This document shows positions 4,657 to 58,980 of a stretch of 64,000 nucleotides of DNA, in pieces. Each line of letters starts with the position of its first letter. Position 1 is the stretch's first letter. The stretch is from Gammaproteobacteria bacterium (GTDB lineage: Bacteria > Pseudomonadota > Gammaproteobacteria > JAABTG01). Below the pieces are notes generated by a model. It was not told the origin of the DNA. It ran no database searches and worked only from the letters and a program-made list of their open reading frames with translations. Both the position numbers and the translations under genes were made by a program. The stretch lies in assembly GCA_034522055.1 (NCBI GenBank), contig JAXHLS010000002.1, forward strand, positions 2,995,549 through 3,059,548. Reading direction: 5' to 3'.

Positions 4657-4838
4657 CTGCCGGTGAGCCGGGCGGGGCCCGTCTGCGGCCCTGGTCGTAA
4701 AAGGACCCCGATGCGGTGGGATAAGGAGGAAACACTTGGCCGCACCGGGGCCAAACAGGTGTCCCCGCAATGGACCCTGCGCGCACGGTTTTGCTTTCCC
4801 ATGCCGTACAATGCGCCGCTCCGATGAAGGTCCCCGAC

Positions 4839-5720
4839 ATGCCGCTGCTGTTGACCGCCCGCAACCTGGTGAAGGTGTTTCCCGGCACCCGGGCGGTGGA
4901 CGACGTGAGCTTCGAGGTGGAGCAGGGTACCTGTTTCGGGCTCCTCGGTCCCAACGGCGCCGGCAAGACCACCACCCTGGAGATGCTGGAGGCCATTCAG
5001 GTCTGCACGGCGGGGGAGATACGTTATAAGGGGCGGCCCCTGGATGCCCGCTATCGTGAGGAGGTGGGGATCCAGTTCCAGGCCACGGCCCTGCAGGACT
5101 TCCAGAGCGTGAGCGAGTCCCTGACCCTGTTCTCGCGGCTCTATGCCCGCCGCGCCGATCGGGATGAACTGGTGCGGATGTGCAATCTCGGGGATATTCT
5201 CCATCAGGACACCCGCACCCTGTCCGGCGGCCAGCGCCAGCGCCTGCTTCTGGCCATCGCCCTGGTGAACGATCCGGAGTTGGTGTTCCTGGACGAGCCC
5301 ACCACCGGTCTGGACCCTCAATCGCGGCGCAACTTCTGGGGTCTCATCGAGTCGGTGCTGGCTCGCGGCAAGACCGTGGTGCTCACCACCCACTACATGG
5401 AGGAGGCCGAGCGTCTGTGCGACGTGGTGGCCATCATCGACCACGGCCGGGTCATCGCCCACGGGCGCCCGCGGGAACTCATCCGCGAGCACTTCCCCGA
5501 CGTGGTGGTGCGCCTGCCCGCCGCCCACTGGCCGGCGGAGCAGCCCCTGCCGCCAGGCGGCGCGGTCCACGACGGCGAGGTGGAGCTGTTCACCGACGAC
5601 GTGGCGCCCCTGCTGGACCTGCTGCGGCGCGCCGGGGCGGACCTCACGGAGATGCGGGTGGAGACGCCCAACCTCGAGGACCTGTTCCTCAAGCTCACCG
5701 GCCATGCCCTGAGGGCCTAG
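4839..5720 (+). CDS. ABC-2 type exporter, ATP-binding subunit
   Basis: The ATPase of a two-component ABC-2 exporter. Walker A is GPNGAGKTT, the signature is LSGGQRQR, Walker B is LVFLDEPTTGLDP and the switch His lies in TTHYMEEAE. A C-terminal extension of about 80 residues is typical of DrrA/NodI-like ATPases. I prefer the ATG at 4839 because AAGGT lies upstream and the ABC fold begins soon after it; an in-frame ATG at 4770 would add 23 residues without homology. The permease gene follows after four bases. The substrate is unknown: drugs, lipids and polysaccharides are all exported by relatives. Confidence 0.88.
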   Translation: MPLLLTARNLVKVFPGTRAVDDVSFEVEQGTCFGLLGPNGAGKTTTLEMLEAIQVCTAGEIRYKGRPLDARYREEVGIQFQATALQDFQSVSESLTLFSRLYARRADRDELVRMCNLGDILHQDTRTLSGGQRQRLLLAIALVNDPELVFLDEPTTGLDPQSRRNFWGLIESVLARGKTVVLTTHYMEEAERLCDVVAIIDHGRVIAHGRPRELIREHFPDVVVRLPAAHWPAEQPLPPGGAVHDGEVELFTDDVAPLLDLLRRAGADLTEMRVETPNLEDLFLKLTGHALRA

Positions 5721-5724
5721 CTTC

Positions 5725-6744
5725 ATGTGGCAACGAATCGCCGCCATCCTGGTGGCCCGTAACCGCGAGTTCTACCGCGACCGCGCCGGGTTGGCCTGGA
5801 ACGTGTTGATGCCCCTGCTCATCCTGGTGGCCTTCGCCTTCCTGTTCCAGGGCGAGCCCGAGGACGTGCTGGAGGTGGGGGTGGTGACGGGCGATGAGGC
5901 CATGGAGGCCGTGGACTCGCCCTTCCTGGAGCTGGAGCACATCGCCTTTACGCCCTTCGCGGACGTGGCGGTGGGCATGGTGAAGGTGGAACGCCACCAG
6001 ATTGACCTGTTGGTGGACCTGCGGGGTGCGCCCGTCTACTGGATCAACGCCAACGCCCCCCGTGGCCACGTGGCCGAGCGCCTGCTGCTGGGGGCCTACG
6101 GTACGCCGGGCACGGAACCCCGCCGCGAGACGGTGACGGGGCGGGCCCTGCGCTACGTGGACTGGGTGCTGCCGGGGATCCTGGGGGTCAACATCATGTT
6201 CAGCAGCCTGTGGGGGGTGGGCTGGGTCATCGTGCGCTACCGCAAGAACGGCGTGCTGCGGCGCCTCAAGGCCACACCCCTCACCGCCTTCGAGTTCCTC
6301 GCCGCCCAGGTGCTGTCTCGCCTCGGCGTGGTGATGGTGGCCACGGTGGTGGTATATGCCGGGGCCCACCTGCTGCTGGACTTCGTCATGCGCGGGGCCT
6401 TCCTCACCTTGCTGCTGGTGTATGCCGCCGGCGCCCTGTCCCTCATCAGCCTGGGGTTGGTGGTGGCCGCGCGGCTGCGTTCCGAGGAGCTGGCGGACGG
6501 GGTGCTGAACCTCCTCTCCTGGCCCATGATGCTGATGTCCGGGGTGTGGTTCTCCATGGAGAGTGCCAGCGCCCCCGCCCGCTTGTTGGCGGAACTCCTG
6601 CCCCTCACCCACGTGGTCAACGCCACCCGCGGCGTGATGGTGGAGGGCCACGGCCTGGCGGAGGTGGCGCCGGGCATCGCCGTCCTGCTGGCCATGTCCA
6701 CCGTGTTTATGATCGTGGCTGCCCGCGCGTTCTGCTGGGAATAG
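5725..6744 (+). CDS. ABC-2 type exporter, permease subunit
   Basis: This 339-residue membrane protein has one N-terminal helix, a soluble domain of about 120 residues and then five to six helices, the ABC2_membrane_3 layout. The terminal ABC-2 signature region is recognisable in ELLPLTHVVNATRGV. It starts four bases after the ATPase stop, so the two form one operon and very likely one exporter. Nothing nearby identifies the substrate. Confidence 0.87.
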   Translation: MWQRIAAILVARNREFYRDRAGLAWNVLMPLLILVAFAFLFQGEPEDVLEVGVVTGDEAMEAVDSPFLELEHIAFTPFADVAVGMVKVERHQIDLLVDLRGAPVYWINANAPRGHVAERLLLGAYGTPGTEPRRETVTGRALRYVDWVLPGILGVNIMFSSLWGVGWVIVRYRKNGVLRRLKATPLTAFEFLAAQVLSRLGVVMVATVVVYAGAHLLLDFVMRGAFLTLLLVYAAGALSLISLGLVVAARLRSEELADGVLNLLSWPMMLMSGVWFSMESASAPARLLAELLPLTHVVNATRGVMVEGHGLAEVAPGIAVLLAMSTVFMIVAARAFCWE

Positions 6745-6833
6745 CCGTTCCGCCATGCCCTGGCTCAAGGTGTCGGAGCCTGGCCCGCGCTATCCTGTCC
6801 CCCGTGATCACCGAGCATTCAAGGAGGCGAACC

Positions 6834-7499
6834 ATGCATGATGTAAACGGAGAAAAGACCACCTCAGCCGTGGCGAAGCTGAATCAGCAACTGCCCCTCA
6901 CGGCGCGCCAGCGGCGACTCCCAGAGCCCCTGGCAGCGGCCCACCGCGCCATGCTGAGGTCGCTGGCGGAGCGGGGACGGCCCCTCGATGCTGAGGAACT
7001 GGCCGCCCTGGTGGGTACGCGGGACACCGCCGGCGCCCTGGAACGCCTGGGCAAAGACGACCTCGTGGTGTTGAACAGTGACGGTACGGCCGTGGGCGCT
7101 TACCCCATGACCATAGAGGACACCCCCCACCGCCTGCGAGTGAACGGCCGGCCGGTGCATGCCATGTGCGCCCTGGACGCGGTGTCCGTGGGCCCTATGT
7201 TCGATGCGGAGGTGGCCATCGAATCGCGCTGCGCGGTGACGGGGGAGCCCATCCGCATCCGCCAGCGAGGTGCGCAGATCCTGGCCGCCGAGCCCTCCGA
7301 CGACGTGCGAGTGGGGGTGCGCTGGCAGCAGCCGGAGGGCCATGCCGCCCACAGCATGTGCATGGAGATGGTGTTCCTGAAGGACGGCGAGACCGCCCGC
7401 CGCTGGCTGGCGACGGGCGAGGGTGAAGACAAGAGCCAGTACACCCTCGACGACGCCGTGGCCTTCGGTGCCGGCTTCTTCCTGCCCCTGGTGGAGTAG
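6834..7499 (+). CDS. merB: organomercurial lyase (alkylmercury lyase) MerB
   Basis: MerB protonolyses the carbon-mercury bond of organomercurials in the cytoplasm and releases Hg(II). The 221-residue length is normal. The catalytic set is complete: Cys112 and Asp115 (in HAMCALDA), Cys133 and Cys176 (in SMCMEMVF). Their spacings match Cys96, Asp99, Cys117 and Cys159 of the plasmid R831b enzyme. The motif GAYPMT before the active site is also present. An ideal ribosome binding site, AAGGAGG, lies 7 bases before the ATG. No merR, merT, merP or merA is nearby, so Hg(II) would have to be dealt with elsewhere. The flanking genes (ABC exporter, coiled-coil proteins) do not form an obvious mercury operon. 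Confidence 0.88.
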   Translation: MHDVNGEKTTSAVAKLNQQLPLTARQRRLPEPLAAAHRAMLRSLAERGRPLDAEELAALVGTRDTAGALERLGKDDLVVLNSDGTAVGAYPMTIEDTPHRLRVNGRPVHAMCALDAVSVGPMFDAEVAIESRCAVTGEPIRIRQRGAQILAAEPSDDVRVGVRWQQPEGHAAHSMCMEMVFLKDGETARRWLATGEGEDKSQYTLDDAVAFGAGFFLPLVE

Positions 7500-7628
7500 C
7501 ATTGCGCAACCGGAAGGGGGGCATTCCGCGCGCATTAACAAAGGATGATCGGCAACAGAGGGCAACTGGCTATGATATGCGCAGTGTGGCCGATCGCCGC
7601 CGCACCCAACTCACCAGGAGATCATCGA

Positions 7629-7916
7629 ATGTCTGAAAGGGAAGAGTATATCGCGAAGGCACGGGCCCGTCTCGACCAGTGGAACGCCGAGATCGACAAG
7701 CTAAAGGCCAAGGCCGACGAGGCCGAGGCCGAGGCCAGGATCCAGTACCAAAAGCAGATTGAGGAATTGCGTACGCAGCGCGACGAGGCCGAGCGGAGGA
7801 TGAAAGAAATGCAGGAGGCCGGCGACGCGGCATGGGACGACATGAAGTCCGGCTTCGATCAGGCCTGGGACAGCATGTCGAAGGCCTTCGACGATGCCAT
7901 GAACCGGTTCAAGTGA
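7629..7916 (+). CDS. small cytoplasmic coiled-coil protein
   Basis: This 95-residue protein is almost entirely charged amphipathic helix, rich in E, K, A and R, with no signal peptide. AGGAG precedes the ATG at 7629. The last third carries the motif AWDDMKSGFDQAWDSMSKAF. The next gene carries a clearly related motif, so the two are tandem paralogs, one cytoplasmic and one exported. Proteins of this kind are often annotated only as coiled-coil or apolipoprotein-like. I can assign no function. Confidence 0.75.
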   Translation: MSEREEYIAKARARLDQWNAEIDKLKAKADEAEAEARIQYQKQIEELRTQRDEAERRMKEMQEAGDAAWDDMKSGFDQAWDSMSKAFDDAMNRFK

Positions 7917-7927
7917 TGGGGGTGCAT

Positions 7928-8404
7928 ATGATGGCTTACCGAAAATCCATACAGGCGTGCCTGCTTGCTGCTGTCCTGTCCCTTGTCGCGATGCCGTCTG
8001 TCGCCCAGGACGGCGCCCAGGACAACGAGGCGCTGACCACCACGGACGATTTACGCGCGGAGGTATCCGAGGCGATGGAGGCGATCGCAGAATATTCGGC
8101 GCAGGAACGGGATCAGGCGCTGACAAAGGCCCGCGAGACCCTGAAGCAGTTGGATGCCGAGATCGAGCGCCGGGAACACGCGCTGCGCGAGAACTGGGCC
8201 GATATGTCCAAGGCCGCGAAACACACCGCCCGCGAGCGGCTGCGGGATCTGCGCCGGGCGCGCAATGCCCTGGGGGAGCGCTACGGTGCGCTCCAGGCGG
8301 GTACCAGCAGCGCGTGGGATGAGCTCAAGTCCGGCTTCTACAACGCCTGGGACGCATTTTCCGAGGCCTGGAGCGCCGCCGACGAGGCGCCTAAGAACAA
8401 CTGA
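7928..8404 (+). CDS. exported coiled-coil protein, paralog of the preceding gene
   Basis: Starting at ATG 7928 or 7931, the protein has a signal peptide ending near AQDGAQ and then a long charged amphipathic helix of about 110 residues. Its C-terminal motif (AWDELKSGFYNAWDAFSEAW) repeats the pattern of the upstream protein. The genes are separated by 11 bases, so they are co-transcribed. Location in the periplasm is inferred from the signal peptide. Function is unknown. A hairpin follows the stop codon. Confidence 0.75.
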   Translation: MMAYRKSIQACLLAAVLSLVAMPSVAQDGAQDNEALTTTDDLRAEVSEAMEAIAEYSAQERDQALTKARETLKQLDAEIERREHALRENWADMSKAAKHTARERLRDLRRARNALGERYGALQAGTSSAWDELKSGFYNAWDAFSEAWSAADEAPKNN

Positions 8405-8412
8405 TAGCTGCA

Positions 8413-8438
8413 CCAGCGGTGGCGCCAGCCACCGCTGG
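8413..8438. terminator. hairpin between convergent genes
   Basis: The arms CCAGCGGTGGC (8413-8423) and GCCACCGCTGG (8428-8438) form a perfect 11-bp stem with a 4-nt loop. It sits between the coiled-coil operon and the convergent molybdenum hydroxylase operon. No T tract follows on either strand, so it may be a transcript-end stabiliser or a weak bidirectional terminator. Confidence 0.5.
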
Positions 8439-8527
8439 CACACGCCCCGCCCCGGGGAATCACAGGGTCCTTGCGGGCTTCAGTCCCTGCCCCGGGGCTT
8501 GCGGGCCGTTGCCAGTGGCCCCGGGGA

Positions 8528-10741
8528 CTATCCCGTGGCAGCCAGTTGCTGTTTGATCGGCAGGTTGCGCAGGCGTTGACCGGTGGCCGCGAAGATCGCG
8601 TTGAGCACCGCCGGCGCGGCGACGGCGATGGTGGGTTCGCCGATGCCACCCCAGAACCCGCCCGAAGGCATGACGATGGTCTCCACCGCGGGCATCTCGT
8701 CCATCAGAAGTGACGGGAAATCATGAAAGTTGCTCTGGGCCACGGCGCCGCCTGCGATGGTGCACTCGCCGTAGAGCAGGGCCGACAGCCCGTAGACGAA
8801 CGAGCCTTCGACCTGGGCCTCGATCTGTTGCGGGTTGACCGCGTGACCGGGATCGGTGGCGGCGACGATGCGATGGATTCTGAGTCCGCCCCCGTCATCC
8901 ACCGACACCTCCGCGCAGGCGGCGACGTAACTGCCGAAGGTCTTGACCACCGCCAGCCCGCGATGCATGCCCTCGGGCGCGCTCTGGCCCCATCCGGCCT
9001 TGTCCGCCACGGCGTCGAGTACCGCCAGGCCCTTGGGGTTGCCCGCCATCAGGCCGCGCCGGAAGTCGAGGGGGTCCCGGCCGGCGGCATGGGCCAGTTC
9101 ATCCATGAAGCATTCCATATATATGGCGTTCTGGTTGATGTTCACCCCGCGCCAGAACCCCGGTGGCACCGGCGGGTTGCGCATGGCGTGTTCCACCAGC
9201 AGGTTGGGCACGGTATAGCTGATGGCATGATCGCCCTCGGCATGAAAGCCCTGGAAGGTGACCGCATCGGCGCCGTCCTGTAAGGCCGCGGGACGCACCG
9301 TGGCGAGGATGGACTGGCCGGAGATGCGCACGTGCAGCCCGGTCAGGTTGCCGTCCTCATCGAGGCCGCCCGTGAGCCTGCACTGGGTGATGGGGTGATA
9401 GTGGCCGTGGGCCATGTCTTCCTCGCGGCTCCACAACAACTTGACCGGGGTGCCCGGCAGTTGTCTGGCGATGGTCACCGCCTGCGTGACGAAATCATGA
9501 AACGCGCCGCGCCGGCCAAATCCGCCGCCCAGGTGGATCTTGTAGACGTCGCATCTGTCGGCCGGCAGCCCCGACGCCTCGATCGCCGCCGCCAGCGCCG
9601 CCTCGCCGTTTTGCGTGGGGCACCAGACCTCGCACTTGTCTTCGGTCCACACCGCGGTGGCGTTCATCGGCTCCATGGTGGCGTGGTTCTGATAGGGATA
9701 GCGATAGGTGGCCTCGATGGTCCTCGTCGCGCCGTCCAGCGCCTCCCTGACATCACCGGCCTGGTTGCCGACAAATACATCCCCGTCGGAGGTCAGTCCC
9801 TCCTCGAGCATCCTGTCGATGGCGGCGCTGTCCAGTTCCGCGTTCGGGCCCTTGTCCCAGGTGATGGGCAAGGCCTCGAGGGCCTTGTGGGCCTGCCACC
9901 AGGTGTCGGCGACCACGGCCACGGCCTCCTCGCCGACCCGCACCACCTTGCGTACGCCGGGCATGCCGCGCACCTTTTCCCCGTCGAAGGATTCCAGCCT
10001 GCCACCGAACACCGGGCAGGCCTTGATGGCCGCGTTGAGCATCCCCGGCAGTTGTAAATCGGCGCCGAAGATCTGCCGGCCGTTGAGCTTGTCGTCGGTA
10101 TCCAGGCGCGGGACGGGCTTGCCGATGAGACGCCACTCGCCGGGATCCTTCAGTTCCACGTGCTGGGGCGGGAACAGCTCGGCGGCCGCCGCGGCGACCT
10201 GACCGTAGGTGACGGTGCGCCCGCTGGGCCCGTGGGTGATGACGCTGTTGGCGGCACGGCAGTCAGCCGTGGATACGTCCCAGCGCTCGGCCGCCGCCTG
10301 GATCAGCATCTGCCGCGCCACGGCCCCGCCCTTACGCACGTAGCGGTGGCTGTCGCGGATCCCCCGGCTGCCGCCGGTGGAGAAGCTGCCCCATACCCGA
10401 TTGCGGGCACGGTTCTCGCCGGGGGTGGGATACTCGGTGATGACCCTGTCCCAGTCGCATTCCAACTCCTCGGCCACCAGTTGCGCCAGCCCCGTCAGGG
10501 TGCCCTGACCCATCTCGGAACGGGCGATACGGATGATCACGGTGTCATCGGGCTGGATCACCACCCAGGCCCCGATCTCGGGTGTGCCCTCGGACGGCAA
10601 TTCGTCCCACTCACCCGCCCGGGCGCCGCCGCCGAGGGGCAGATAGAGCCCGAGGGAGAAGCCGGCCCCCAGGCCGGCCACGCGGGTGCCGGTGATCAGG
10701 AACTCGCGGCGGGATGGATCTAGAGGTTTCTGTTTCATCAC
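8528..10741 (-). CDS. molybdenum hydroxylase large subunit, IorB-like (Tat-exported)
   Basis: This 737-residue protein is the molybdopterin-cytosine-dinucleotide subunit of an isoquinoline 1-oxidoreductase/aldehyde dehydrogenase type enzyme. A twin-arginine leader (SRREFLITG) near the N terminus predicts folded export. Molybdopterin-binding landmarks are visible, including GGGFGRR and the GGSRGIRDS segment. The catalytic Glu of the family is present in [10 protein letters not shown] near the C terminus. The start overlaps the stop of the Fe-S subunit gene by four bases, so the two subunits are coupled. The real substrate may be an aldehyde or an N-heterocycle. No XdhC-like maturation factor or cytochrome subunit is adjacent. 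Confidence 0.88.
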
Positions 10742-11214
10742 GACCTCCCGTCCTTGCCTCGATTCATCCGGGCGGCCGCCAGATGAATGCCCCGCCGCAC
10801 GCGGTTGAAGGTGCCGCAGCGGCAGATGTTGGTCACCTGCCGGTTGATCTCCTCGTCACTGGGTTCCGGATGCCCGTGGAGCAGCGCCGCGGCGGCCATG
10901 ATCATCCCCGGCTGGCAGTATCCGCACTGGGGCACGTCCAGCTCCTTCCAGGCCTGCTGCAGCGGATGACTGTTATCGGCCGACAGTCCCTCGATGGTCA
11001 CGATGGGTCTGGACTCGTCCATGGCCGACACCGGCACCATGCACGAGCGCACCGCCTCGCCGTCCACATGCACCGTGCACGAACCGCACCGGCCGATGCC
11101 GCATGCATACTTGGTCCCGGTCAAGCCGAGCTGTTCGCGCAGCACCCAAAGCAGGGGGGTGTCACCATCCGCCTCCACCTCGAGCCGTTCGCCGTTGATG
11201 TTCAGTGTCGCCAT
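10738..11214 (-). CDS. molybdenum hydroxylase small subunit, 2Fe-2S protein, IorA-like
   Basis: The 158-residue electron-transfer subunit of the enzyme encoded just downstream. The first, plant-type [2Fe-2S] cluster is set by Cys38, Cys43, Cys46 and Cys58. The second uses Cys97, Cys100, Cys131 and Cys133 (CGYC and CRC). Length and spacing are those of CoxS/IorA. There is no own signal peptide, so it is probably carried out with the Tat-tagged large subunit. It is the first gene of the two-gene operon. Confidence 0.9.
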
Positions 11215-11349
11215 GGAAAGGCCTCCGAAAAACCTGCCAAGAGTCTAGACAGGCTGATGGCGCGGGGCAACGAGGGTTCGAGCGACGATGGGCCATCGAG
11301 AGGAACAGGGCGCGTGATCCGGGAGGTTGTGCGAGTACGCCGCCGGGGG

Positions 11350-11775
11350 TCAGGTGAACAGAGCCCGCACCAGGCGTACCCCGCCCAGCAACACCAGGGG
11401 CACGCCGGCAAGGGCGAACAATGTCGGCTTGGCCCACAGGCGCAGGAAGGAATCCACCACCGCTCGCTGTCGATTACGGGGATCGTAACGCACCGTCACC
11501 CGTTCTCCCGCCTCGTAGAGTTTCTTGCCCGCCCCCACTTCGCTGGTGATGCGCTGGGTGTGGCCCTGGTGGTCCTGGAATTCCACTACCGGGTAGTAGA
11601 ACAGGGCGGGATAACGCCGCGAGGCGGTCTCGTAACCGGAGGTGTAGTCCACCACGGTGCCTTCCACGGGTACCGTGTTCGCCACCAGTTGGCGCGAGGT
11701 CTCGTAGGCCTGGAAAGCGAAATACCAAGGTACCAGCCCGACGACCAGCAAGATGAGGGGTGGGAGGATCTTCAA
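11350..11775 (-). CDS. DUF3592 membrane protein
   Basis: This 141-residue protein has an N-terminal membrane helix, a central beta-rich domain and a second helix close to the C terminus, the DUF3592 architecture. The central segment with FYYPVVEFQD and ERVTVRYDPRN is typical of the family. Its role is unknown. It is separated by 135 bases from iorA and by 228 bases from the next gene, so it probably has its own promoter. Confidence 0.75.
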   Translation of the reverse strand: MKILPPLILLVVGLVPWYFAFQAYETSRQLVANTVPVEGTVVDYTSGYETASRRYPALFYYPVVEFQDHQGHTQRITSEVGAGKKLYEAGERVTVRYDPRNRQRAVVDSFLRLWAKPTLFALAGVPLVLLGGVRLVRALFT

Positions 11776-12003
11776 GGGGGTCGTCTCATGGGGTAGCGTT
11801 CATCGACCGTCCAGAGTTCAGTGTCGCGCTTCTCGGCTGGATATCGATTTCGCGGGTGTCCGCCGTGGTAGTCCGCGATGGACGAACCACCTGTCAGAAT
11901 AGGAGTATAAGGAATTTGGCATACCCGTTTCTGCCAGGTCATAGAGGCCCTGACCCGATGATCGCCTTTCCGGTGGTCGATGGTGGCCTCCCCCTTCGAC
12001 GAT

Positions 12004-30295: not shown

Positions 30296-31137
30296 GTGGC
30301 GCCAGGCAAAGCCTGGGAAAGGAGGAAAGAGAGTATCTGAGGAATGAAACGGCTTGAAACGGTTCCACCGTGCACCGTCGGTGTAAGTCCTGAAACCGGT
30401 AAGGCAGACCCGCCACCGGAAACTCTGAGCGTCGCGCGGGCTGGGGGCGACCCGTTCGCCGCGAAGCGTACACAGGGGGTGTGCAGGCCGCGTGATAGAG
30501 CCTCGAAAGGCGCAGCGTGGGGCCGACGCTTTCGAAGGGGCGGGAGGCAACAGGGTGCGGACTGAGTGGGTCGGGTCGTGCTCCCCGCCGGGGTCGGAGA
30601 GCAGGGCATGTACACAAGGGTCACCCAGGAACCTGGGAGGGCTCATGCGCTCCTTGCGGATAGTGCGATGCGGGCGTCGCCTAAGAAAAGGCCCCGGAAC
30701 GACCACCCGAGGGGTGCCGGGCGGGTGGACGCGAAGACGGCACGACGCAAGGTACCGCCAAGCGAAGGCAACGAAGTGCGGCGGGATGGCGGATGAGCAA
30801 TCGGAGTCGGCGGATAGGACCCGATGAGCGTGGGGGAAACTCACCCGAGAGGACCCACGGGAGGGAAGCGGCCGACCGGCGCAGACAGCTTCTCGGAGGG
30901 ACAGATGACGCGGACATCGAGCCGCGAGATCATCCCAACGCGACAACGGAAGCGCGCGGAACTGGCGAGCGCAGCCCGGGGCAGGTGGGCCATGCCCATC
31001 CGAGGGTCTGTCTCTGACGAGCGGGGTACGTGGTGTACGCCACGTAGCGTTTGCTACATCGAGGAGCCGGATGCCTTAATTGGGCACGTCCGGATTCGCG
31101 GGAGCTGCGGGTGAGCAATCACCCGTGGCCACCCGAC
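30296..31137 (+). ncRNA. ORF-less group II intron, copy 1
   Basis: An 842-base self-splicing-type element with no reverse transcriptase gene. The 5' end is GTGGCGCC (copy 2 has the canonical GTGCG). Domain V is 31064-31097: GAGCCGG opens it with the AGC catalytic triad, and GCACGTCCGG carries the usual two-base bulge. A domain VI hairpin follows, and the element ends in CCCGAC. Removing it joins TTTCG to CGGTTACG, exactly the uninterrupted repeat at 14091-14103 and 2599-2611. The last six 5'-exon bases CTTTCG (30290-30295) are complementary to CGAAAG at 30504-30509, a good EBS1 candidate. Splicing and mobility would need a maturase encoded elsewhere. Open frames within it are not conserved between the two copies. 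Confidence 0.88.
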
Positions 31138-34471: not shown

Positions 34472-35714
34472 TTCGTCGCCTCGATGCTGCTGAGCCTCAT
34501 CGAACGCAAAATCCGGGCCCAGATGCATGAGCACAATATCAGCGCCACCCATCCGCTTCTTCACGGCTGAAGACCAAGGCGCCGACCTGGCGGGTGATCC
34601 GTCGTTTCTTCGAGGGCATCAACCTCAGCACCATCCTTCAAGACGGCAGCCCCATCCGCTCCACCCTCAAGGGGCTCACACCCTTGCACGAGCAGGTCTT
34701 GAGAAGACGTCGTTGATTTCCTGATAACGTCTATCGACAACTCCGCGACGGATGGTGGAACTTCGCTCCCTCATAACTCCCGGTACAGCGATTACGCCAA
34801 CGCTTCTTTAAAAATCCGTCCGAAATCCGAAATCCGCAAACTCCTGAAATAACTCGCGCGAAATGTAACGACTTGCAACCTTCGTTGTGACCCCGTCGGC
34901 GCGCAAGTCCCGAACCGGTAAGGCCGGATCCCGCGACCGGAACCGAGTGTTGCGTGGATTGGGGGCGCCCCCGTTCGGCGAAGCGTACACCAGGGGGTGT
35001 GCAGGCCGTGTGATAGAGCCTCGAAAGGCGCAAATGTGGGGCCGACGCTTCTCGAAGTGACGGAAGGCAACAGGGTGCGGACCGAGTGGGTCGGGTCCGC
35101 GCTCCCCACCGGGGTCGGAGGGGCAGGGCGTGTACACGAGGGGTCACCCAGGAACCTGGAGAGGGCTCCATGCGCTCCTTGCGCGTAGTGCGATGCGGGC
35201 GTCGCATGAGATAGTGCCCCAGGAACGACCACCGAGGGGTGCCGGGCGTGGTGGACGCGAAGACGCTGCACGACGCAAGGTACCGCCAAGCGAAGGCAAC
35301 GAAGTGCGGCGGGATGGCGGATGAGCATTCGGAGTCGGCGGATAGTACCGATGAGCGTGGGGAACTCACACCGAGAGGACCCCACGGGAGGAAGCGGCCG
35401 GCCGGTGCAGACAGCTTCGGGAGGGACAGATGACGCAGACATCGAGCCGCGAGGAATCATCCCGAACGCGACAACGGGAAGTGCGTGGCACCGGCGAGCG
35501 CAGCCCGGGCAGGTGGGCCATGCCCATCCGAGGGCCTGTCTTGACCAGCGGGTACGTGGCGGTACGCCACGTAGCGTTTGCTACATCGAGGAGCCGGATG
35601 CCTTAATTGGGCACGTCCGGATTCTGTGGGAGCCGCGGGCGAAGCAATCACCCGTGGCCACCCGACCGGTTACGCTTTTAGCAGGTCCGGATCATTCCTA
35701 CAGGAGCAATCGTT

Positions 35715-51213: not shown

Positions 51214-51502
51214 GATCATCCTCCGTATCCATCCATGCGCGGCGCACGAAGGCCACCGCCGCCACCGCCGCCAGCAGGGCGAACGCCAGGGCGACGTCCC
51301 GCAGGGCGCCGGCGATCGAGGCCTCGGCGAGGAGCAGCAGCATGGCCACCGCGGTGGTGCCGAACAACTGCGCGGCGGACATGCGGTCGGCGGCGGTGGG
51401 TCCCGCGTACCACCCGCCACATGCCAGCGCCGCAGGTGTGCAGCAGCAGAAACAGCGCCAGGAGCAGGGACAGGTAGTTCGCGATGGCGCCGGGCTCCAG
51501 GT
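51200..51502 (-). CDS. mnhF: Mrp-type antiporter subunit F
   Basis: About 98 residues. The main part, GPTAADRMSAAQLFGTTAV through ASIAGALRDVALAFALLAA to AWMDTEDD, is one frame and matches MnhF/MrpF. The first helix (YLSLLLALFLLLHTCGAG) is displaced by one base near 51430. The stop TGA (51200-51202) overlaps the start of the G subunit. Confidence 0.78.
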   Translation of the reverse strand, partial: TWSPAPSRTTCPCSWRCFCCCTPAALACGGWYAGPTAADRMSAAQLFGTTAVAMLLLLAEASIAGALRDVALAFALLAAVAAVAFVRRAWMDTEDDHDGD

Positions 51503-52028
51503 ATCAGCAGGGGCGTCCCGAAGAGCCGGGCGACGGCCTGCGCCGACGTCCGCGATCTCGCGCATGCTGTTCGGCCCGGGCTCGTCGAGCACATGGAACG
51601 GCTGCCAGCCGGTCGCCGTCCACGCCGGCGCCCAGGGTGCCCGGCAGGAGGGAGATGGTGTTGGCCAGCATCACCCGGGCGAGGCCGGCGGGCAGGCGCA
51701 GGGGAATCGATGACCGCCGGCGCGATGGGCAGACGGGGTCAGGGCGGCGCTGGGCCACGTCGAGGCTGCCCAGCAGCGAGCGCTCGAGGAAGAAGGGCAC
51801 GAACGTCAGCAGCTCGCGCCAGACGAGGGGTACGGGCGGCATGAGGGCCGCGCTGGCCACCGCCGCCAGCAGCACCGCCGGCACCCACCCACCATGATGC
51901 CGGGCGCCTGCGGTCAGGGCCCACCAGATGATGGCGAAGGGCACGCTGCGGGCGGCCACGGTGGACCAGCGGAAGGTGTCAGTCGTGGCGGCGATGGCTG
52001 GGTCAGGGCAGGTCTGTATGAATGGCAT
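51500..52028 (-). pseudogene. mnhE: Mrp-type antiporter subunit E (frame-broken)
   Basis: From ATG 52028 the signals are WWALTAGARHHGGW, ALMPPVPLVWRELLTFVPFFLERSLLGSLDVAQR, LPAGLARVMLANTISLLPGTL and VHVLDEPG-like sequence, the MnhE order over about 165 residues. It is the first Mrp-type gene of the operon. The end is uncertain because of frame changes after 51640. Confidence 0.78.
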
Positions 52029-52093
52029 TGATCGAGGTGGGTGGCGCGGGGCGTATCCCTGAGCGGGCCATGGCCGGGCCGCGAAGCACGGCC

Positions 52094-52870
52094 TCAGGCC
52101 GCCGTCTCGGCCGCGATGCGCCGCAGGGCCGGCACCTCGACGCCCGCCTCGTCGGCTTGGGCGATGGCGCGGGCCAGGCGTGCCGGGGCGGAAACGGCCG
52201 ATGCACTGGGCCTGGTGGGGTCGCCGTCGAAGTGCTGGCGAGCACGGCCTCCATGAGGCGCGCCCGCGGCAGGGAGACCCCCGCGGTAGGTGCTCCTGGA
52301 CGGCGAGCACGTCGGCGGCCACCTCCTTGTGCATGAGGGGGATGGTGTTCCCGCAGCTCGCTGACGGTGCCGCCCACCTTGAGGCCCGCCACGTTGGTGG
52401 TGACGATGTAGAGGTTCTTGCGCACCAGTTCGAACAACAGCTGGTCGCGGTCGGCGAGGATGGTCGTGGGGATGTCCAGGGTATCCAGGGCCCGTGCCAC
52501 CAGGGCGGCGTGGGGGCCGTAGACGGGGGACGGCACCAGCACCTTGTGGTCCTGGCCCTTCTTCTTTTCGAACCACACGGATATCACCGTGGGCTCGAGG
52601 TCGTGGGTCTCCCAGTCGGCGGGCAGCAACTCGTTCTGCAGCAGCATCACCCGGGGGCGCCAGGCGGCGGGCAGTTCCCGGAGGGCGGGCTGGAGATCCT
52701 TCTCCGCCACCGCCACCAGCACCATCAGGGGCTCGGGCAGTTCCGCCGCCACGGCATCGGGATCCATGTGGCGGGTGACGGGATAGACGGGATGGCCGCA
52801 GCGCAGGAAACCGCGGGCGAACACGCGCCGCCATCTCCCCGATGCCGATGATGACGATGGGTGGGTTCAT
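52094..52870 (-). pseudogene. NAD(P)-binding protein, PanE/ApbA-like (frame-broken)
   Basis: Starts at ATG 52870 with a dinucleotide-binding motif (IVIIGIGEMA). The middle, from ARGFLRCGHPVYPVTRHMD through PRVMLLQNELLPADWETHD to VRKNLYIVTTNVAGLKVGGTVSE, is one frame; start and end are shifted. A C-terminal helical part ends VPALRRIAAETAA. It resembles ketopantoate-reductase-like proteins. It lies upstream of the antiporter operon on the same strand, and its role is unknown. Confidence 0.65.
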
Positions 52871-53630
52871 GGTCCGGTTCTTCAATGGTCGCGTCGGCGA
52901 GCAGGGTCGATAGGGTCACCGGGCGGAAGCCGGCCTCTTCCCACAGCAGGCCGGAGCCCGCCTCGTACCAGTCGTCCAGCACGATGCGGGTGGCGGTGCG
53001 CCCATCCACGCGGTGCCGGTGGACGGCGGGCCGGTGGGTGTGGCCGTGGATCACAGACGCCGCGCCGGTGGCGGCGGAAGGCGTCCTCCACCGCCCGCGG
53101 GGTGGCATCCATCGGCATCCGACGACTTGGCCGCCACCGCCGGCCAGGGACGATCGCGGATGTCCGTGGCCAGGCGCCGCCGCTCGCCCAGGGGCCGGGC
53201 GAAGGAGGTCCGCGGCGAACTCCCGGCTGCGCATGCGGGCGCGAAAGGCCTGGTAGTCCACGTCGTCCAGGCACAGGGTGTCGCCGTGCATCAGCAGCAC
53301 CTCGCGGCTGGCCACCGTGGCCACCGTGGGGTCCTCCAGCAGGCGGCAGCCGCTGCGACGGGCGAAACCGTGCCGCCCGCCAGGAAGTTCGTGCGCCGAC
53401 CCCGCATGAAATACACCGCTGTGCCCGCGGCCGCGGCCCGGCCGAGGGCCGCCATCACCTCGTCATGGCCGGGGGCGTCGTCGTCGTCTCCCAGCCACAG
53501 GTCGAAGAGGTCCCCGAGGATGTACACCGCCTCCATGGCCCGGGCCGGGCCCGCCATGAGACCCAGGAATTCCTCCAGGGGGCCGGGGCGGGCGGCGGCG
53601 AGGTGACAGTCGGAGATGAACAGCGCAGCC
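52869..53630 (-). pseudogene. lpxH: UDP-2,3-diacylglucosamine diphosphatase LpxH (frame-broken)
   Basis: LpxH hydrolyses UDP-2,3-diacylglucosamine in lipid A synthesis at the inner membrane. The metallophosphatase motifs appear in order: [23 protein letters not shown], a GNRD/F-like position ([12 protein letters not shown]), [25 protein letters not shown] and VLDDWYEAGSGLLW. Length fits about 240 residues. The start is probably a TTG or GTG near 53630. Frame changes lie near 53380, 53210 and 53075. Confidence 0.8.
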
Positions 53631-53657
53631 AACGGGCCCGGCCCCCGGCCGGTGTTT

Positions 53658-54157
53658 TTAGATTTCTTCCGCCTTTTCGATTCACCACATCCTCCACGGG
53701 CAGGCGCCCGCCGTGGCCCGCGCGGGGTGGTGGTGTCCACCTCTTTGACGTTGTTGACGGTGTCCATGCCCTCCACGACCTTGCCGAACACACAATAGCC
53801 CCAACCCTGGGGCGTGGGGCTCTGGTGGTTGAGGAAGGTATTGTCGTTGACGTTGATGAAGAACTGGCTGGAGGCGGAGTGGGGGTCCTGGGTGCGGGCG
53901 ATGGACAGCATGGCGCCGGTCTGCGTTGGCCAGGCCGTTGTCCGCCTCGTTGTTGGGGGCGTCGGTGGCCTTCTGCTGCATGCCGGGCCGCAGCCGCCAC
54001 CCTGGATCATGAAGCCGTTGATGACACGGTGGAAGAGGGTGTTGTCGAAGAAGCCGTCCGGACATAGGACATGAAGTTGGCGACGGTCTCGGGCGCCTTC
54101 TCCTCGTTCAGTTCGAGGACGATGTTGCCGGTGATCGGTCTGCATGCGTACTTTCAT
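53658..54157 (-). pseudogene. ppiB: cytoplasmic peptidyl-prolyl isomerase PpiB (frame-broken)
   Basis: A single-domain cyclophilin of about 164 residues without signal peptide. Landmarks are [59 protein letters not shown] and [10 protein letters not shown]. The natural stop is the TAA at 53658 (IEKAEEI end in a shifted frame). Start ATG 54157. Frame changes lie near 54090, 54005, 53920 and 53690. Confidence 0.82.
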
Positions 54158-54174
54158 GGGTAACCCCTGTTGGA

Positions 54175-54804
54175 TGATGGTCTTGGTCGTTCGCAGGCCG
54201 GCCGGCCGGGATCGACTCGCCTGCGGCGGAGCCCTCCACCAGGCTGATGCCTTCGATGGCGACGGTCTCCGGGACGACGCCCGCCCATGCCCCGCTGGCG
54301 GCCAGTGGGCACCGCCTCGATGCGCTCCACCACCTCCATGCCCCCCACCACGCGGCCGAACACGGCATAGCCCCAGCCCCGCGGCGTCTTGCCGCTGTGG
54401 TTCAGGAAGTCGTTGTCCGCAACGTTGATGAAGAACTGGGCCGTGGCCGAGTGGGGGTCGGAGGTACGGGCCATGGCGATAGTGCCCTTGTCGTTCTTCA
54501 GGCCGTTGTCGGCCTCGTTTATCACCGGCGCCCGGGTGGGTTTCTTGCGCAGGTCGGCGGTCACGCGCGCCACCCTGGATCATGAAGCCGTCGATGACGC
54601 GGTGGAAGAGGGTGCCGTCATAGAAGCCGTCCTTCACGTAGCTCAAAAAATTCTCCACCGTGGCGGGGGCCGGGCGTCGTGGAGTTCCACGACGATGACC
54701 CCCATGGAGGTCTGGATGTCTGACCCGCGGCCGGCGGCGACCGTCAGGGGCTGGGCGGCCAGACACAGCAGCAGGAAGGCCGGGAGAAGACGCTGGAAAC
54801 TCAT
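54175..54804 (-). pseudogene. ppiA: periplasmic peptidyl-prolyl isomerase PpiA (frame-broken)
   Basis: From ATG 54804 a signal peptide ([20 protein letters not shown]) leads into a cyclophilin domain: [58 protein letters not shown] and [20 protein letters not shown]. The C-terminal extension [15 protein letters not shown] and the end near 54175 are uncertain. It lies 17 bases upstream of ppiB, so both cyclophilins form one operon with lpxH. Confidence 0.82.
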
Positions 54805-54983
54805 GGGTGGGCTCCTGAGGCTTGGGGTGTGGTGAGTGGGGATGGGTACGGATAACGCGGCTGGAATACCGCGCGTACTATAGCAGTGGTCCGGCGTGGA
54901 AAAAACGCGGCCCCCGTCAGGCTGGCAATGGCGGCGCCGGGCGGGAAAATGGCGGCCCCTTCGCCACCCCATGTCGAGCCCCC

Positions 54984-56460
54984 ATGCTGCACATCCACAA
55001 TACCCTCACCCGCCACGAAGAGCCCCTGGAACCCATCGAGCCCGGCCCGGGCGGCCGCAGCTGCACGTCGCTGTGCCGCCGCATGACCGTCGTACGACGT
55101 GACCTGCGCAGCCCGGGCCACGGCCCGGGCGATGCGTGGTGTTCCCAGACGCGGCGGCGCTGGCTCTCCTCGCGCCACGAGGGCTACGAGCGCCACCTCC
55201 GACGCGACGTGACGGACATCGACGACAAGATCATCAAGCGCGCCGCCGAGAACGGGGAGGCCGTCACCGCCCTGACGGAGCGCTTCATCGCCGCGCATGC
55301 GACGAGGACGATGGGCGCGCTCCTGGCCGTGCCGACCGCCGGACCGAAGGTGCCCCGGGCCACCGGCCACCTGGAGGAGCATCGTCGCCATGGTCCGGGC
55401 GCTCGGCCGAGACAGGCGACGCCGACGCGGCTGCCAACGGCGACGTCGTCGACCGGCGTGGAGCCGCTTCGACGGGTACGGCCGGCTCTCGCACCGCAAG
55501 CCCGAGGACCTGGAAGCGGGCCGCGCCAGCCGCGTCGCCGGAGGTGTCGACGAGGGCAGGTGACGACGGCTGGACTTCGCGCTGCTGGAAGGCCGCCAGA
55601 GGCCGGCAGAGCCCGCCTGGCCTTCGCCCCTGGGGCGAGGGGCGTCCCGGCGGGCGCATCGAGCGCTCGGCGATGTCGACCCGGCCGCCTCGGCGACGCA
55701 CTTCGACATCCACGGCGGCGGGCATGCGATCTGCACGTGCTGCCCGCATCAGCTGAGAACGTATCGCCCAGTCCGAGGGCGCCACCGGCGAGCCCTTCGT
55801 CAACCTGTGGATCACAACGGCTTCGTGCGCGTGGCGGACGAGAAGATGTCCAAGTCCCTCGGCAACTTCTTCACCGTGCGGGGACTGCCGACTATCCCGG
55901 CGAGGGCGATCCGCTACTTCATCCTCACCAGCCACTACCGCAGCCCCCTGAACTACGGCGAGACTCACCTGGACAACGCCCGGGCGGCCCTGGAACGCCT
56001 CTACACCGCCCTGGGATGTCCCCGACGACGGCGCCGACGGCCCCCTGGACCCCGACCTCGCGGCCCGCTTCAGCGCCGCCATGGAGGACGACTTCAGCAC
56101 CGAGGCCCTGGCGGGGCGCTCTTCGACCTGCCCAGGGCCGTGAACCGTGCCCAGCAGGCCGGCAGCGACCGCCTCGCCCGCCCGTACCTGCGCCGCCGCG
56201 GCCGTCTTCGGCCGCTCCAGCGTTACCCCAGGCATTTCTCGAAGGGTGCCGCCGGGCCGGCAACTCGGGTTGAGCGACGAGGAGTGGACCGCCTGCTGCG
56301 GAACGCATGGAGGCCTGCCATCGCCGACTTCGCCGAGGCCGACCGCATCCGCGACCTGCTGGTGGACGAAGGCATCGCCCTGGAGGACTCCCCCGACGGC
56401 ACGCCGCCGCGCCGCGGGCACGAGGCCGCGCCGAGCGCATGTGCTCAGGGACAGGGCTTT
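54984..56460 (+). pseudogene. cysS: cysteinyl-tRNA synthetase (frame-broken)
   Basis: A class I synthetase that charges tRNA-Cys. ATG 54984 gives MLHIHNTLTRHEEPLEPIEP. Then, spread over frames: a MTVVRRD-like zinc/HIGH region, VTDIDDKIIKRAAENGEAVT, ARFDGYGRLSHRKPEDLEAG-like, VADEKMSKSLGNFFTVR (the KMSKS loop), IRYFILTSHYRSPLNYGE, and DFAEADRIRDLLVDEGIAL. All parts of a 460-residue enzyme are there in order. The gene is essential and single-copy in bacteria, so the 15 or more frame breaks strongly suggest sequence error. Confidence 0.85.
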
Positions 56461-56476
56461 CCAGGCTCAAACGTCG

Positions 56477-56571
56477 AACAAGGGAAAAGGGAAAAGGGAA
56501 AGGAAAAAGTTAAGAAAAAAAACAAACAAAGACAAAGACAAAAGCAAAGACAAAAGCAAAAACAAAAAAAC
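56477..56571 (+). repeat. A-rich low-complexity tract
   Basis: A purine tract built of GGGAAAA and then ACAAAG/ACAAAA units. It directly follows the cysS end and precedes the ATTTCCC array. The GGGAAA units echo the same block in the dispersed repeats near 2720, 13770 and 30150. It is not coding. Confidence 0.75.
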
Positions 56572-56609
56572 GTTGCTAGCAGACGCGCCAGGTCAAGCTA
56601 CACTCTTGC

Positions 56610-56714
56610 ATTTCCCATTTCCCATTTCCCATTTCCCATTTCCCATTTCCCATTTCCCATTTCCCATTTCCCATTTCCCATTTCCCATTTCCCATTTCCC
56701 ATTTCCCATTTCCC
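56610..56714 (+). repeat. tandem array of 15 perfect ATTTCCC units
   Basis: The 7-base unit ATTTCCC is repeated 15 times without a single mismatch over 105 bases. Degenerate short versions of the same unit occur inside each composite dispersed repeat. There are no spacers, so it is not CRISPR. It lies in the gap between cysS and the convergent hypothetical gene. Confidence 0.95.
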
Positions 56715-56783
56715 AATCGCCAACCATCTCTCCCTGCCTCTCCAGCTCCTCAAGACCCCAAGCTACGCGCTCGACACGGCCTG

Positions 56784-57142
56784 TCAGCCGCCGAAGAGTT
56801 TGCTCATCAGGCGGGCGAACCAGCCCTGGGGCTCGTTGGTGGTGGCCCGCGGCTCGCTGGTGGCGGATGGCGCTGCTGCCCTGGCTCTGTGCTGCCGGGG
56901 GTTCCGGTGCCTTTTGCCGGGGGCGGTGCCGCCGCAGGCGCGGGTGAGGGGCGCTTCGGCGGGGGGCGCCTTGGCGGCGGACGCCGGGGCGGGGGCAGGT
57001 GACGGACCGCCGCGTTCAAGGCCTGCGGATAATGGCGCCGCAGTACGGAGTCCTCGGGGTGGTGGCGGAAAACCACGGGCGGCCGCGTGCTGTTCGAAAT
57101 GCCGGCGCAGGACCGAATCGGTCGGTATGGTAAGGCCACTCA
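56784..57142 (-). pseudogene. small hypothetical protein with repeated DSVLRRH motif
   Basis: From ATG 57142 the product reads MSGLTIPTDSVLRRHFEQ, then in another frame EDSVLRRHYPQALNAAV, then a long Pro/Ala-rich linker and a basic tail ending GWFARLMSKLFGG. Two copies of DSVLRRH about 20 residues apart suggest a duplicated short helix. At least one frame change is present. No family is recognised; it lies just downstream of folD on the same strand. Confidence 0.5.
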
Positions 57143-57237
57143 TGGGATCTGCCCTTCTTGGAGATAACGGCAATCGGAAATCAGCAGCAGCGTCGTGATC
57201 CGCGGGCCGGCAATGGGGGTTATTACAGGGCCTCGCT

Positions 57238-58107
57238 TCAGCCAGCCACGGCCTCCGCGGCCCCCGCCAGCTCGGCGGCGTAGAGGGTGTTCTCCAGCAG
57301 CATGGCCATGGTCATGGGGCCCACGCCGCCGGGCACCGGGGTGATCCAGGAGGCCCGTTCCCGGGCGGCGTCGAAATCCACGTCGCCCACCAGGCGGCCG
57401 TCGTCGAGGCGGTTGATGCCCACGTCGATGACCACCGCGCCCGGCTTGATCCACGTGCCCTCGATGAGGCCCCGCTTGCCGGTGGCCGACACCAGGATGT
57501 CCGCCTGGCCCACCAGGTCTGCCAGGTTATCGGTGAAGCGGTGGCATACGGTGACGGTGGCTCCCGCCAGCAGCAGTTCCAGGGCCATGGGGCGGCCGAC
57601 GATATTGGAAGCGCCCACCACCACCGCGTGCTGGCCCTTGAAGGGCTGGTTGGCGTAGCGCAGCAGGGTCATGATTCCGTGGGGGGTGCAGGGCCGCAGG
57701 CGGGGCAGGCGCAGGGCCAGGCGGCCGACGTTGTAGGGGTGGAAACCGTCCACGTCCTTGTCGGGATGGATGCGCTCGATGACGGTTTCCGGATCGATAT
57801 GGCCAGGCAGGGGCAGTTGCACCAGGATGCCGTTGATGGCGCCGTCGGCGTTGAGGTCGTCGATGAGGGCGAGGAGTTCGTCTTCCGGCGTATCCGCCGC
57901 CAGGTCGTAGGACTTGGAGAACACCCCACCCTTCACAGGCCCGGCGCTTGTTGCGCACGTAGATCTCGGAGGCGGCGTCGGTGCCCACCAGCACCACCGC
58001 CAGGCCGGGGGCGGACGGCCTCCGGCGGTGCGCTGCTCGATGCGGTCCCGGATCTCCCGCCGGATGTTTCCCGCAACTTGCTTGCCGTCGATTATCATGG
58101 CTTTCAT
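57238..58107 (-). pseudogene. folD: methylenetetrahydrofolate dehydrogenase/cyclohydrolase FolD (frame-broken)
   Basis: FolD interconverts 5,10-methylene- and 10-formyl-tetrahydrofolate. Start ATG 58107 ([15 protein letters not shown]) and stop 57238. The PGLAVVLVG and [10 protein letters not shown] stretch (with the catalytic Lys of the family) sits in another frame between about 58020 and 57940, so there is an out-and-back frame shift. After that [42 protein letters not shown] and [14 protein letters not shown] are intact. Length about 288 residues. The compensating pair of shifts looks like sequence error. Confidence 0.87.
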
Positions 58108-58270
58108 GGGCGGCAAATTCTCGCATGACCCGGTCCGTTCCACCAGCGGCACGGGGTATCGTCGCGGCCGGTGGCGCCGTTGCGGTAGCGGCGCCGGGCA
58201 AGGCCGCGGCTTGATTGACGGCCGAAACCCGCGGGGCTGATCATTGCGCGCTTGCTTGAAACGGTTCCCC

Positions 58271-58347
<77 letters not shown>

Positions 58348-58466
58348 TCAGGCCCGTCGGCCGGGCCTGGCCCGAAGCCGAGTCGCCCACCGCGGCGCGA
58401 TGCCGGCCCCGGGATGGCCCATGGGGCGCCGGGTGCCTCGTGAAGGTGCCGGACGCCCCGGATTTT

Positions 58467-58793
58467 GCGCCCGTAGCTCAGTCGGATAGAGCAACGGCCT
58501 TTTGTGGCGTGCGCGACAGCGCACAAACGAGGAGCCTCTGCGGGGAACAGGAACCCGCAGAGTGGACCGCACCGTATCGGGGAAACCTTAACGGGTCGTG
58601 CCGATGGCAATCCCGAGGAAACCCCTGGCGGCATAGGGGGGATCCGTAGAGACTATACGTGCGGCGCCTGAGAGGGCGAAGAGATAGTCCAGACCACAAA
58701 CCCCCTGGGACCACAAAGCCCCTGGGGGGCGTCGAAAGGCGTAGTGGTAAGCTAAGCCGTGGGTCGCAGGTTCGAATCCTGCCGGGCGCGCCA
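58467..58793 (+). tRNA. argU: tRNA-Arg(UCU) interrupted by a group I intron
   Basis: Exon 1 is 58467-58501 (acceptor GCGCCCG, D arm, ACGGC and CTT of the anticodon loop). Exon 2 is 58752-58793 (CTAA, GCCGT, T arm GCAGGTTCGAATCCTGC, acceptor CGGGCGC and GCCA). Joined they give 77 bases with loop CTTCTAA, anticodon TCT, near-identical to E. coli argU in layout. The intron lies after U34, inside the anticodon. Other splice choices (for example a Lys UUU tRNA) would leave the intron without a terminal G and break the Arg identity elements. Confidence 0.92.
58502..58751 (+). ncRNA. group I intron in the tRNA-Arg anticodon
   Basis: A 250-base ORF-less group I intron. The P7/P3 core is recognisable in GTAGAGACTATACG (near 58645-58660) and AGATAGTCC (near 58680-58690), the conserved R and S elements. 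The upstream half has AACCTTAACGGG and GATGGCAATCC segments like P4-P6 of the Azoarcus tRNA-Ile intron. It follows a U and ends with G (58751), as group I splicing requires. A local hairpin GTGCGCGACAGCGCAC lies near its 5' end. It is very likely self-splicing; without splicing tRNA-Arg(UCU) cannot function. Confidence 0.9.
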
Positions 58794-58826
58794 TTATCAT
58801 GGCGCCAGTATTGTCACAGGTTCGAT

Positions 58827-58903
58827 GGTGGGCGTAGCTCAGTTGGTAGAGCCCTGGATTGTGGCTCCAGTGGTCGGGGGTTCGAATCCCCTCGCTCACC
58901 CCA
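58827..58903 (+). tRNA. tRNA-His(GUG)
   Basis: The 77-base tRNA includes the extra G at position -1 (58827) typical of tRNA-His and encoded CCA. Acceptor GTGGGCG/CGCTCAC, anticodon loop TTGTGGC in stem CTGGA/TCCAG, T arm GGGGGTTCGAATCCCC. It is the last tRNA of the Pro-Arg-His cluster and the AT-richer island begins right after it. Confidence 0.95.
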
Positions 58904-58980
58904 TAAAAGCAGTAAGTTGCGGTGATTTCCCGATTCGCGCCGAACGCCAAATAAGCGCCTAGTAAGCAGTCGCTGGGCAC

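Follow-up and report, generated by a model that had tools for sequence, protein, structure and literature searches.

Among the bacterial tRNA introns described so far, those closest in description to the locus analysed here are the interrupted tRNA-Arg-TCT genes, each with a putative group I intron, of Candidatus Maribeggiatoa (BOGUAY) and Candidatus Thiomargarita nelsonii Bud S10 (PMC4853749). With that report, both the kind of element and tRNA-Arg(UCU) as its host gene were already known. The host tRNA and the gammaproteobacterial setting are the same, and the Bud S10 gene is 324 bases long compared with 327 here; PMC4853749 gives no structure, subgroup or splice site. Alphaproteobacterial tRNA-Arg(CCU) introns (Agrobacterium, Bartonella BbgpI) likewise occupy a tRNA-Arg anticodon loop, and BbgpI self-splices (PMC7717549). 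The pre-tRNA introns of Azoarcus and Synechococcus are labelled IC3 in a reference title in PMC3984707, the Synechocystis tRNA-fMet intron has 655 bases and a PD-(D/E)XK endonuclease, I-Ssp6803I (PMC1995217), and group I introns are noted in tRNA-fMet and tRNA-Ile2 in PMC8450103, where the authors of tRNAscan-SE state that detecting such introns was not a design aim of their program. In an overview (PMC4033280), the only bacteria listed with tRNA group I introns are cyanobacteria, alphaproteobacteria and betaproteobacteria. No survey of gammaproteobacterial tRNA-Arg(UCU) introns or of their endonuclease came up in the open-licence literature, subscription papers lying mostly outside this scope.

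The window analysed here is a 64,000-nucleotide stretch of a gammaproteobacterial contig. With introns allowed, ARAGORN reported a 77-base tRNA-Arg(UCU) interrupted by 250 bases, the junction reading gcctt-intron-ctaag, i.e., after U34 (U34 being the 35th tRNA position in the program's count). Given the spliced exon sequence on its own, the program again called tRNA-Arg(tct); the 5' exon ends in U34, and the last intron base is G58751. A preliminary description made from the sequence alone had given the same coordinates, length, junction and anticodon, and had predicted a 77-base spliced product, a terminal G and a P3/P7 group I core; sequence reading and ARAGORN agree on all points outside the core, and both core helices covary across 17 distinct sets (see below). 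Without the intron option, ARAGORN reported only tRNA-Pro(UGG) and tRNA-His(GUG) in the window. The features of the locus are as follows.

58271 to 58347, forward strand: tRNA-Pro(UGG), neighbour gene (ARAGORN without introns)
58467 to 58501, forward strand: 5' exon of tRNA-Arg(UCU), ending at U34 (ARAGORN with introns; joined to the 3' exon sequence in sister genomes)
58496 to 58501, forward strand: P1 exon side GGCCUU (sequence; four contiguous pairs with 58529 to 58532, U34.G at the splice site; alternative registers)
58502 to 58751, forward strand: predicted group I intron, 250 nt, without a homing endonuclease gene (ARAGORN, RF00028, covariation, tblastn)
58509 to 58524, forward strand: P1 extension hairpin GUGCGC/GCGCAC (minimum-energy fold)
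58529 to 58536, forward strand: internal guide sequence GAGGAGCC (pairing with the exon; GGRGCC kept in U34-site relatives)
58536 to 58562, forward strand: P2 hairpin CUCUGCGGG/CCCGCAGAG (minimum-energy fold)
58567 to 58572, forward strand: P3 5' strand CCGCAC (covariation)
58577 to 58581, forward strand: P4 5' strand UCGGG (covariation, 85/85 cells)
58612 to 58616, forward strand: P4 3' strand CCCGA (covariation)
58622 to 58639, forward strand: P6 hairpin CCCCU/AGGGG (by eye; region of the endonuclease gene in relatives)
58651 to 58655, forward strand: P7 5' strand GACUA, part of the guanosine-binding site (covariation, partly fixed by the search pattern)
58659 to 58664, forward strand: P3 3' strand GUGCGG (covariation)
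58665 to 58678, forward strand: P8 hairpin CGCC/GGCG (covariation, 68/68 cells)
58685 to 58689, forward strand: P7 3' strand UAGUC (covariation)
58693 to 58748, forward strand: P9 region ACCAC/GUGGU (by eye)
58730 to 58741, forward strand: P9b hairpin with GAAA loop, within the P9 region (covariation, 68/68 cells)
58752 to 58793, forward strand: 3' exon of tRNA-Arg(UCU), from C35 to the encoded CCA (ARAGORN with introns)
58828 to 58903, forward strand: tRNA-His(GUG), neighbour gene (ARAGORN without introns)

At the gathering score, a search of the window against Rfam returned no group I intron match. The preliminary description had looked to a group I covariance model as a check, and a match does exist, though a weak one: RF00028 aligned to the stretch spanning P1 through P7 (58491 to 58700) at 21.2 bits (E 0.0034) against a curated cut-off of 50. 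Over 18 related loci the model reached at least 50 bits in none and E ≤ 0.01 in three, and over the window's own genome it gave no match at E ≤ 10. RF00028 is thus a weak model for this intron's lineage, and its threshold belongs to the tool and does not define the group I family. Because the relatives fail as well and the window's own intron was missed, the genome-wide null result is uninformative. Given the weakness of the model here, the core helices were tested directly. Elsewhere in the window, Rfam matched two group II introns (RF02005) on the forward strand at 30384 to 30603 (99.7 bits) and 34904 to 35124 (110.7 bits). A YrlA match at 58758 to 58859 (27.9 bits, cut-off 69) spans two tRNA genes and was taken as chance.

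Covariation analysis began from 32 loci (the window, 18 class-search loci, 12 named records and genome G702) and used 29, all of them tRNA-Arg(UCU) introns, in 17 distinct helix sets. G050 and G702 (other tRNA or site, incompletely parsed) and G361 (broken) were left out, and G036, with its U36 site, was kept. In these sequences, which are kin, and with P7, parts of P3 and P4 and the P9b loop constrained beforehand by the search and parsing patterns, helices P3, P4, P7, P8 and P9b were paired in 408 of 408 cells, with compensatory changes. By helix, the paired cells were 102/102 for P3, 85/85 for P4, 85/85 for P7, 68/68 for P8 and 68/68 for P9b; partner shuffles equalled this in 2 of 1,000 trials for P7 and in 0 of 1,000 for each of the other four. 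For example, P3 reads CCGCAC/GTGCGG in the window, GGATAC/GTGTCC in G061 and TGGTGC/GCACCA in G036, and P9b occurs as CGTC/GGCG, CAGT/ACTG and TAGC/GCTA, with the GAAA loop present in all 17 sets. The window intron has the conserved P3/P4/P7/P8 core, and it shares with the other U34 introns examined a U before the 5' junction and a G at the 3' end. The CCUU preceding the junction can pair with GAGG at 58529 to 58532, which would place at the splice site the U.G pair expected of a group I intron; another register in this stretch scores equally, so that this P1 is plausible only. In the 7 U34 introns checked, 3 to 5 contiguous pairs are possible at the corresponding place. The whole unit folds at a minimum energy of −145.7 kcal/mol (z −2.60), matched by none of 100 shuffles, and among 95 nearby genomes searched a genus mate (G001) carries the intron at 97% identity. 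The fold score, the genus-mate identity and the covarying core together indicate a real intron, beyond chance.

By kinship, the intron would belong to subgroup IC3 of bacterial tRNA introns. Its P7-P8 pattern is common to tRNA-Leu(UAA) and tRNA-Ile(CAU) introns, and across 217 query bases, some of them exonic, it has 69% identity to the intron of G050, which lies in a tRNA read by eye as tRNA-Ile(CAU), the host of the Azoarcus-type IC3 intron; the subgroup label is taken from the literature. The G050 intron differs in its tRNA, its insertion point and its longer P8 loop. The tRNA-Arg(CCU) introns of three phylum genomes (L147 to L149) have the same core pattern as the window intron but interrupt a CCU anticodon after position 36 (ARAGORN i(38)), whereas the window intron follows U34.

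The genome that contains the window, G000, comprises 5,139,057 bases in 7 contigs at 98.16% completeness. A second, uninterrupted tRNA-Arg(UCU), which the preliminary description had proposed to look for, was absent from the 47 tRNA matches in this 98.16% complete assembly, all typed by ARAGORN; the tRNA-Arg types among them were ACG, CCG and CCU. When G000 was searched with the joined exons, only the window and contig C1 matched at full identity, each as separate halves, and both copies are split. The C1 copy is identical to the window gene over all 327 bases, with flanks 89.8 and 95.2% identical. This 33,403-base contig nearly duplicates window positions 51663 to 58904 at 90 to 95% identity over its positions 4738 to 12000, and diverges beyond tRNA-His; it could represent a near-duplicate or come from a second strain. 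Within the same part of the window, from about 51500 to 56500 on both strands, ORFs resembling by eye LpxH, peptidyl-prolyl isomerases and a cysteinyl-tRNA synthetase span several frames, possibly through sequencing indels or decay. At approximately 56560 to 56700, ORF translations contain the short repeated motif FPISHFPFPISH, from a tandem DNA repeat. RpoB of the same genome is open, unlike these frame-split ORFs, and its 1,139-codon stretch contains no AGA, while a FolD ORF has one AGA among 22 Arg codons. A CCU anticodon reads only AGG. Among the tRNA genes found in G000, only the split tRNA-Arg(UCU) would read AGA, so that this tRNA appears little used yet not unused; strong selection for splicing is an assumption.

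The distribution of the intron did not bear out the earlier impression that it is uncommon in gammaproteobacterial tRNA-Arg(UCU), a setting already reported for giant sulfur bacteria. The exact core pattern, whose count is a lower bound, occurred in 19 of the 369 class genomes, and a reversed control matched in none. Seventeen of the 369 carry a tRNA-Arg(UCU) intron, 16 after U34 and one (G036) after U36. The remaining two of the 19 are G050, where tRNA-Ile(CAU) is interrupted, most likely following U33 (exons read by eye), and G361 (L099), an intron remnant that has lost both exon edges and keeps a full endonuclease frame. Missing from the remnant are the flanking tRNA-Pro end, the tRNA-Arg 5' exon and the 3' splice site, and no uncut tRNA-Arg(UCU) was seen in G361 among the matches listed. 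Introns at the U36 site of tRNA-Arg(UCU), L084 (G036) and L164 (G702), lie in different families. Across the phylum, 23 of 398 genomes had the same pattern, one being G000; the other 22 comprised 16 introns in tRNA-Leu(UAA) (7 by ARAGORN, 9 by eye), 4 in tRNA-Arg(CCU), 1 in tRNA-Ile(CAU) (by eye) and 1 in tRNA-Arg(UCU) after U36. Beyond the class, then, many genomes of the phylum have tRNA-Leu(UAA) introns that match the core pattern (L143 to L161). ARAGORN miscalled some interrupted genes, as tRNA-Ser in G114 and G230, as tRNA-Leu in G050, and as tRNA-Phe or tRNA-Ser (several) or tRNA-Met (one) in the phylum set, and the exons of these were read by eye. A scan of named genomes with one 3'-junction variant yielded 12 records, all metagenome assemblies, titled Gammaproteobacteria, Arenicellales, Chromatiales or Thiotrichales.

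Taken from sequence comparison, our main reading, to which we assign a probability of about 0.93, is that a group I intron, most likely working and predicted to be self-splicing, interrupts the anticodon of tRNA-Arg(UCU), and that the gene is not a pseudogene. In the path we envisage, the pre-tRNA would fold with U34 held in P1 as a U.G pair, and an exogenous guanosine bound at P7 would attack after U34. The freed 3'-OH of U34 would then attack after the terminal G58751, joining the exons into a mature tRNA-Arg(UCU) that reads AGA. A dead insertion, leaving a tRNA pseudogene with AGA read by another tRNA-Arg(UCU) or left unread, would suit the rarity of AGA in the RpoB and FolD genes counted, and the G361 remnant shows that such decay happens. 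That explanation is very unlikely given that the window shows no damage to exons or core, that C1 has the identical sequence despite flanks at 90 to 95% identity, and that no other tRNA-Arg(UCU) was found in the genome; its variant with an intact copy elsewhere was rejected by the ARAGORN typing and the joined-exon search of the 98.16% complete assembly.

Removal by enzymes, as for archaeal or eukaryotic tRNA introns, has only the anticodon-loop position in its favour and is hardly credible for an insert with a covarying group I core, a length of 250 nt and a position after U34; bacterial tRNA introns are described as self-splicing group I elements and protein-spliced ones as archaeal or eukaryotic in PMC4033280. 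Somewhat less remote, although still improbable, is that the group I intron has lost the ability to splice alone and requires a host protein. Introns of this kind are presumed to need protein cofactors in vivo to some extent, according to PMC7717549, but the same source has a tRNA-Arg(CCU) intron splicing in vitro, and every core helix examined in the window intron is intact. The self-splicing group I intron remains our preferred reading.

The intron is scattered among related hosts. Among 19 sister genomes lacking the pattern, 16 have an uncut tRNA-Arg(UCU), mostly adjoining tRNA-Pro(UGG) and tRNA-His(GUG), and in the other three (G242, G247 and G241) the gene was not found. Two genomes, G222 and G321, are uncut though in the same genus as the intron bearer G106. 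RpoB was sought in 31 genomes and gave 28 rows, with no match in G342, G362 and G236. On the resulting tree, with G242 scored as empty (it lacks the pattern, its uncut tRNA not being found) and G361 as intron-bearing though a remnant, intron presence needs 12 changes, a number that is no unbiased rate, most sister genomes having been picked for absence of the pattern. The RpoB tree unites the host families f124, f111 and f58 with support (100/99), a grouping that the intron core rejects (AU p 0.008). Conversely, the intron grouping of G000, G001, G135, G238, G127, G267 and G143 is rejected by RpoB (AU p 9.8e-37). The intron data, 170 columns tested for clades named after the trees were seen, also reject f1+f124+f111+f58 (p 0.014) and do not reject f1+f111+f58 (p 0.17). 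Together these comparisons give moderate evidence for horizontal spread of the intron.

A candidate vehicle for such spread lies within some of the related introns. A full 136-residue reading frame occupies the P6 region in G238, G106 and G361 (3 of the 19 pattern-bearing class genomes), is broken in G337 (1 of 19) and likewise in L105, and persists as remnants in G127 and L102. The endonuclease-bearing introns are 658 to 690 bases long, and their product belongs to Pfam PDDEXK_5 (137.3 and 136.6 bits), with no family matched in ncbifam. By phmmer, the G238 protein matches PDB 2OST at 2e-05, and the G106 protein matched nothing in PDB at 0.01. We take 2OST to be I-Ssp6803I, which the Synechocystis tRNA-fMet intron encodes. 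The relatives' introns resemble that intron in length and in carrying a PDDEXK_5 protein; the window intron, unlike it, has no endonuclease gene inside, and a tblastn search of the insert with the relatives' endonuclease gave no match. Copies of the tRNA-His and tRNA-Arg 3' ends, sought in the window as attachment-site repeats, amounted only to short matches.

These patterns suggest that the PD-(D/E)XK homing endonuclease of the relatives could have spread the intron, and that the small form without the gene would derive from mobile ancestors like the endonuclease-bearing relatives. The window intron is probably a post-mobile descendant that retains splicing only, and it would be kept because its loss must be precise. 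A broader proposal, which we advance tentatively and rate at a little under even odds, is that a mobile IC3 lineage with a PD-(D/E)XK endonuclease has repeatedly invaded the tRNA-Arg(UCU) anticodon across gammaproteobacterial families, re-targeting by a few bases (U34, U36) or to another tRNA through its guide sequence, and that the window holds a stripped survivor in the sole source of the AGA-reading tRNA.

To the earlier reports of this element, the present analysis adds its wide, scattered spread, its endonuclease-bearing relatives and its shifted insertion points (U36 and tRNA-Ile(CAU)). Standard annotation (ARAGORN without introns, Rfam at its cut-off) passes over the intron, and genomes of this kind therefore seem to be without tRNA-Arg(UCU). 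Endonuclease-bearing, decaying and endonuclease-free forms, at U34 and U36 sites, all occur in this lineage and make up a natural series in which to follow the spread of group I introns and their establishment in tRNA genes that are essential but seldom called upon.
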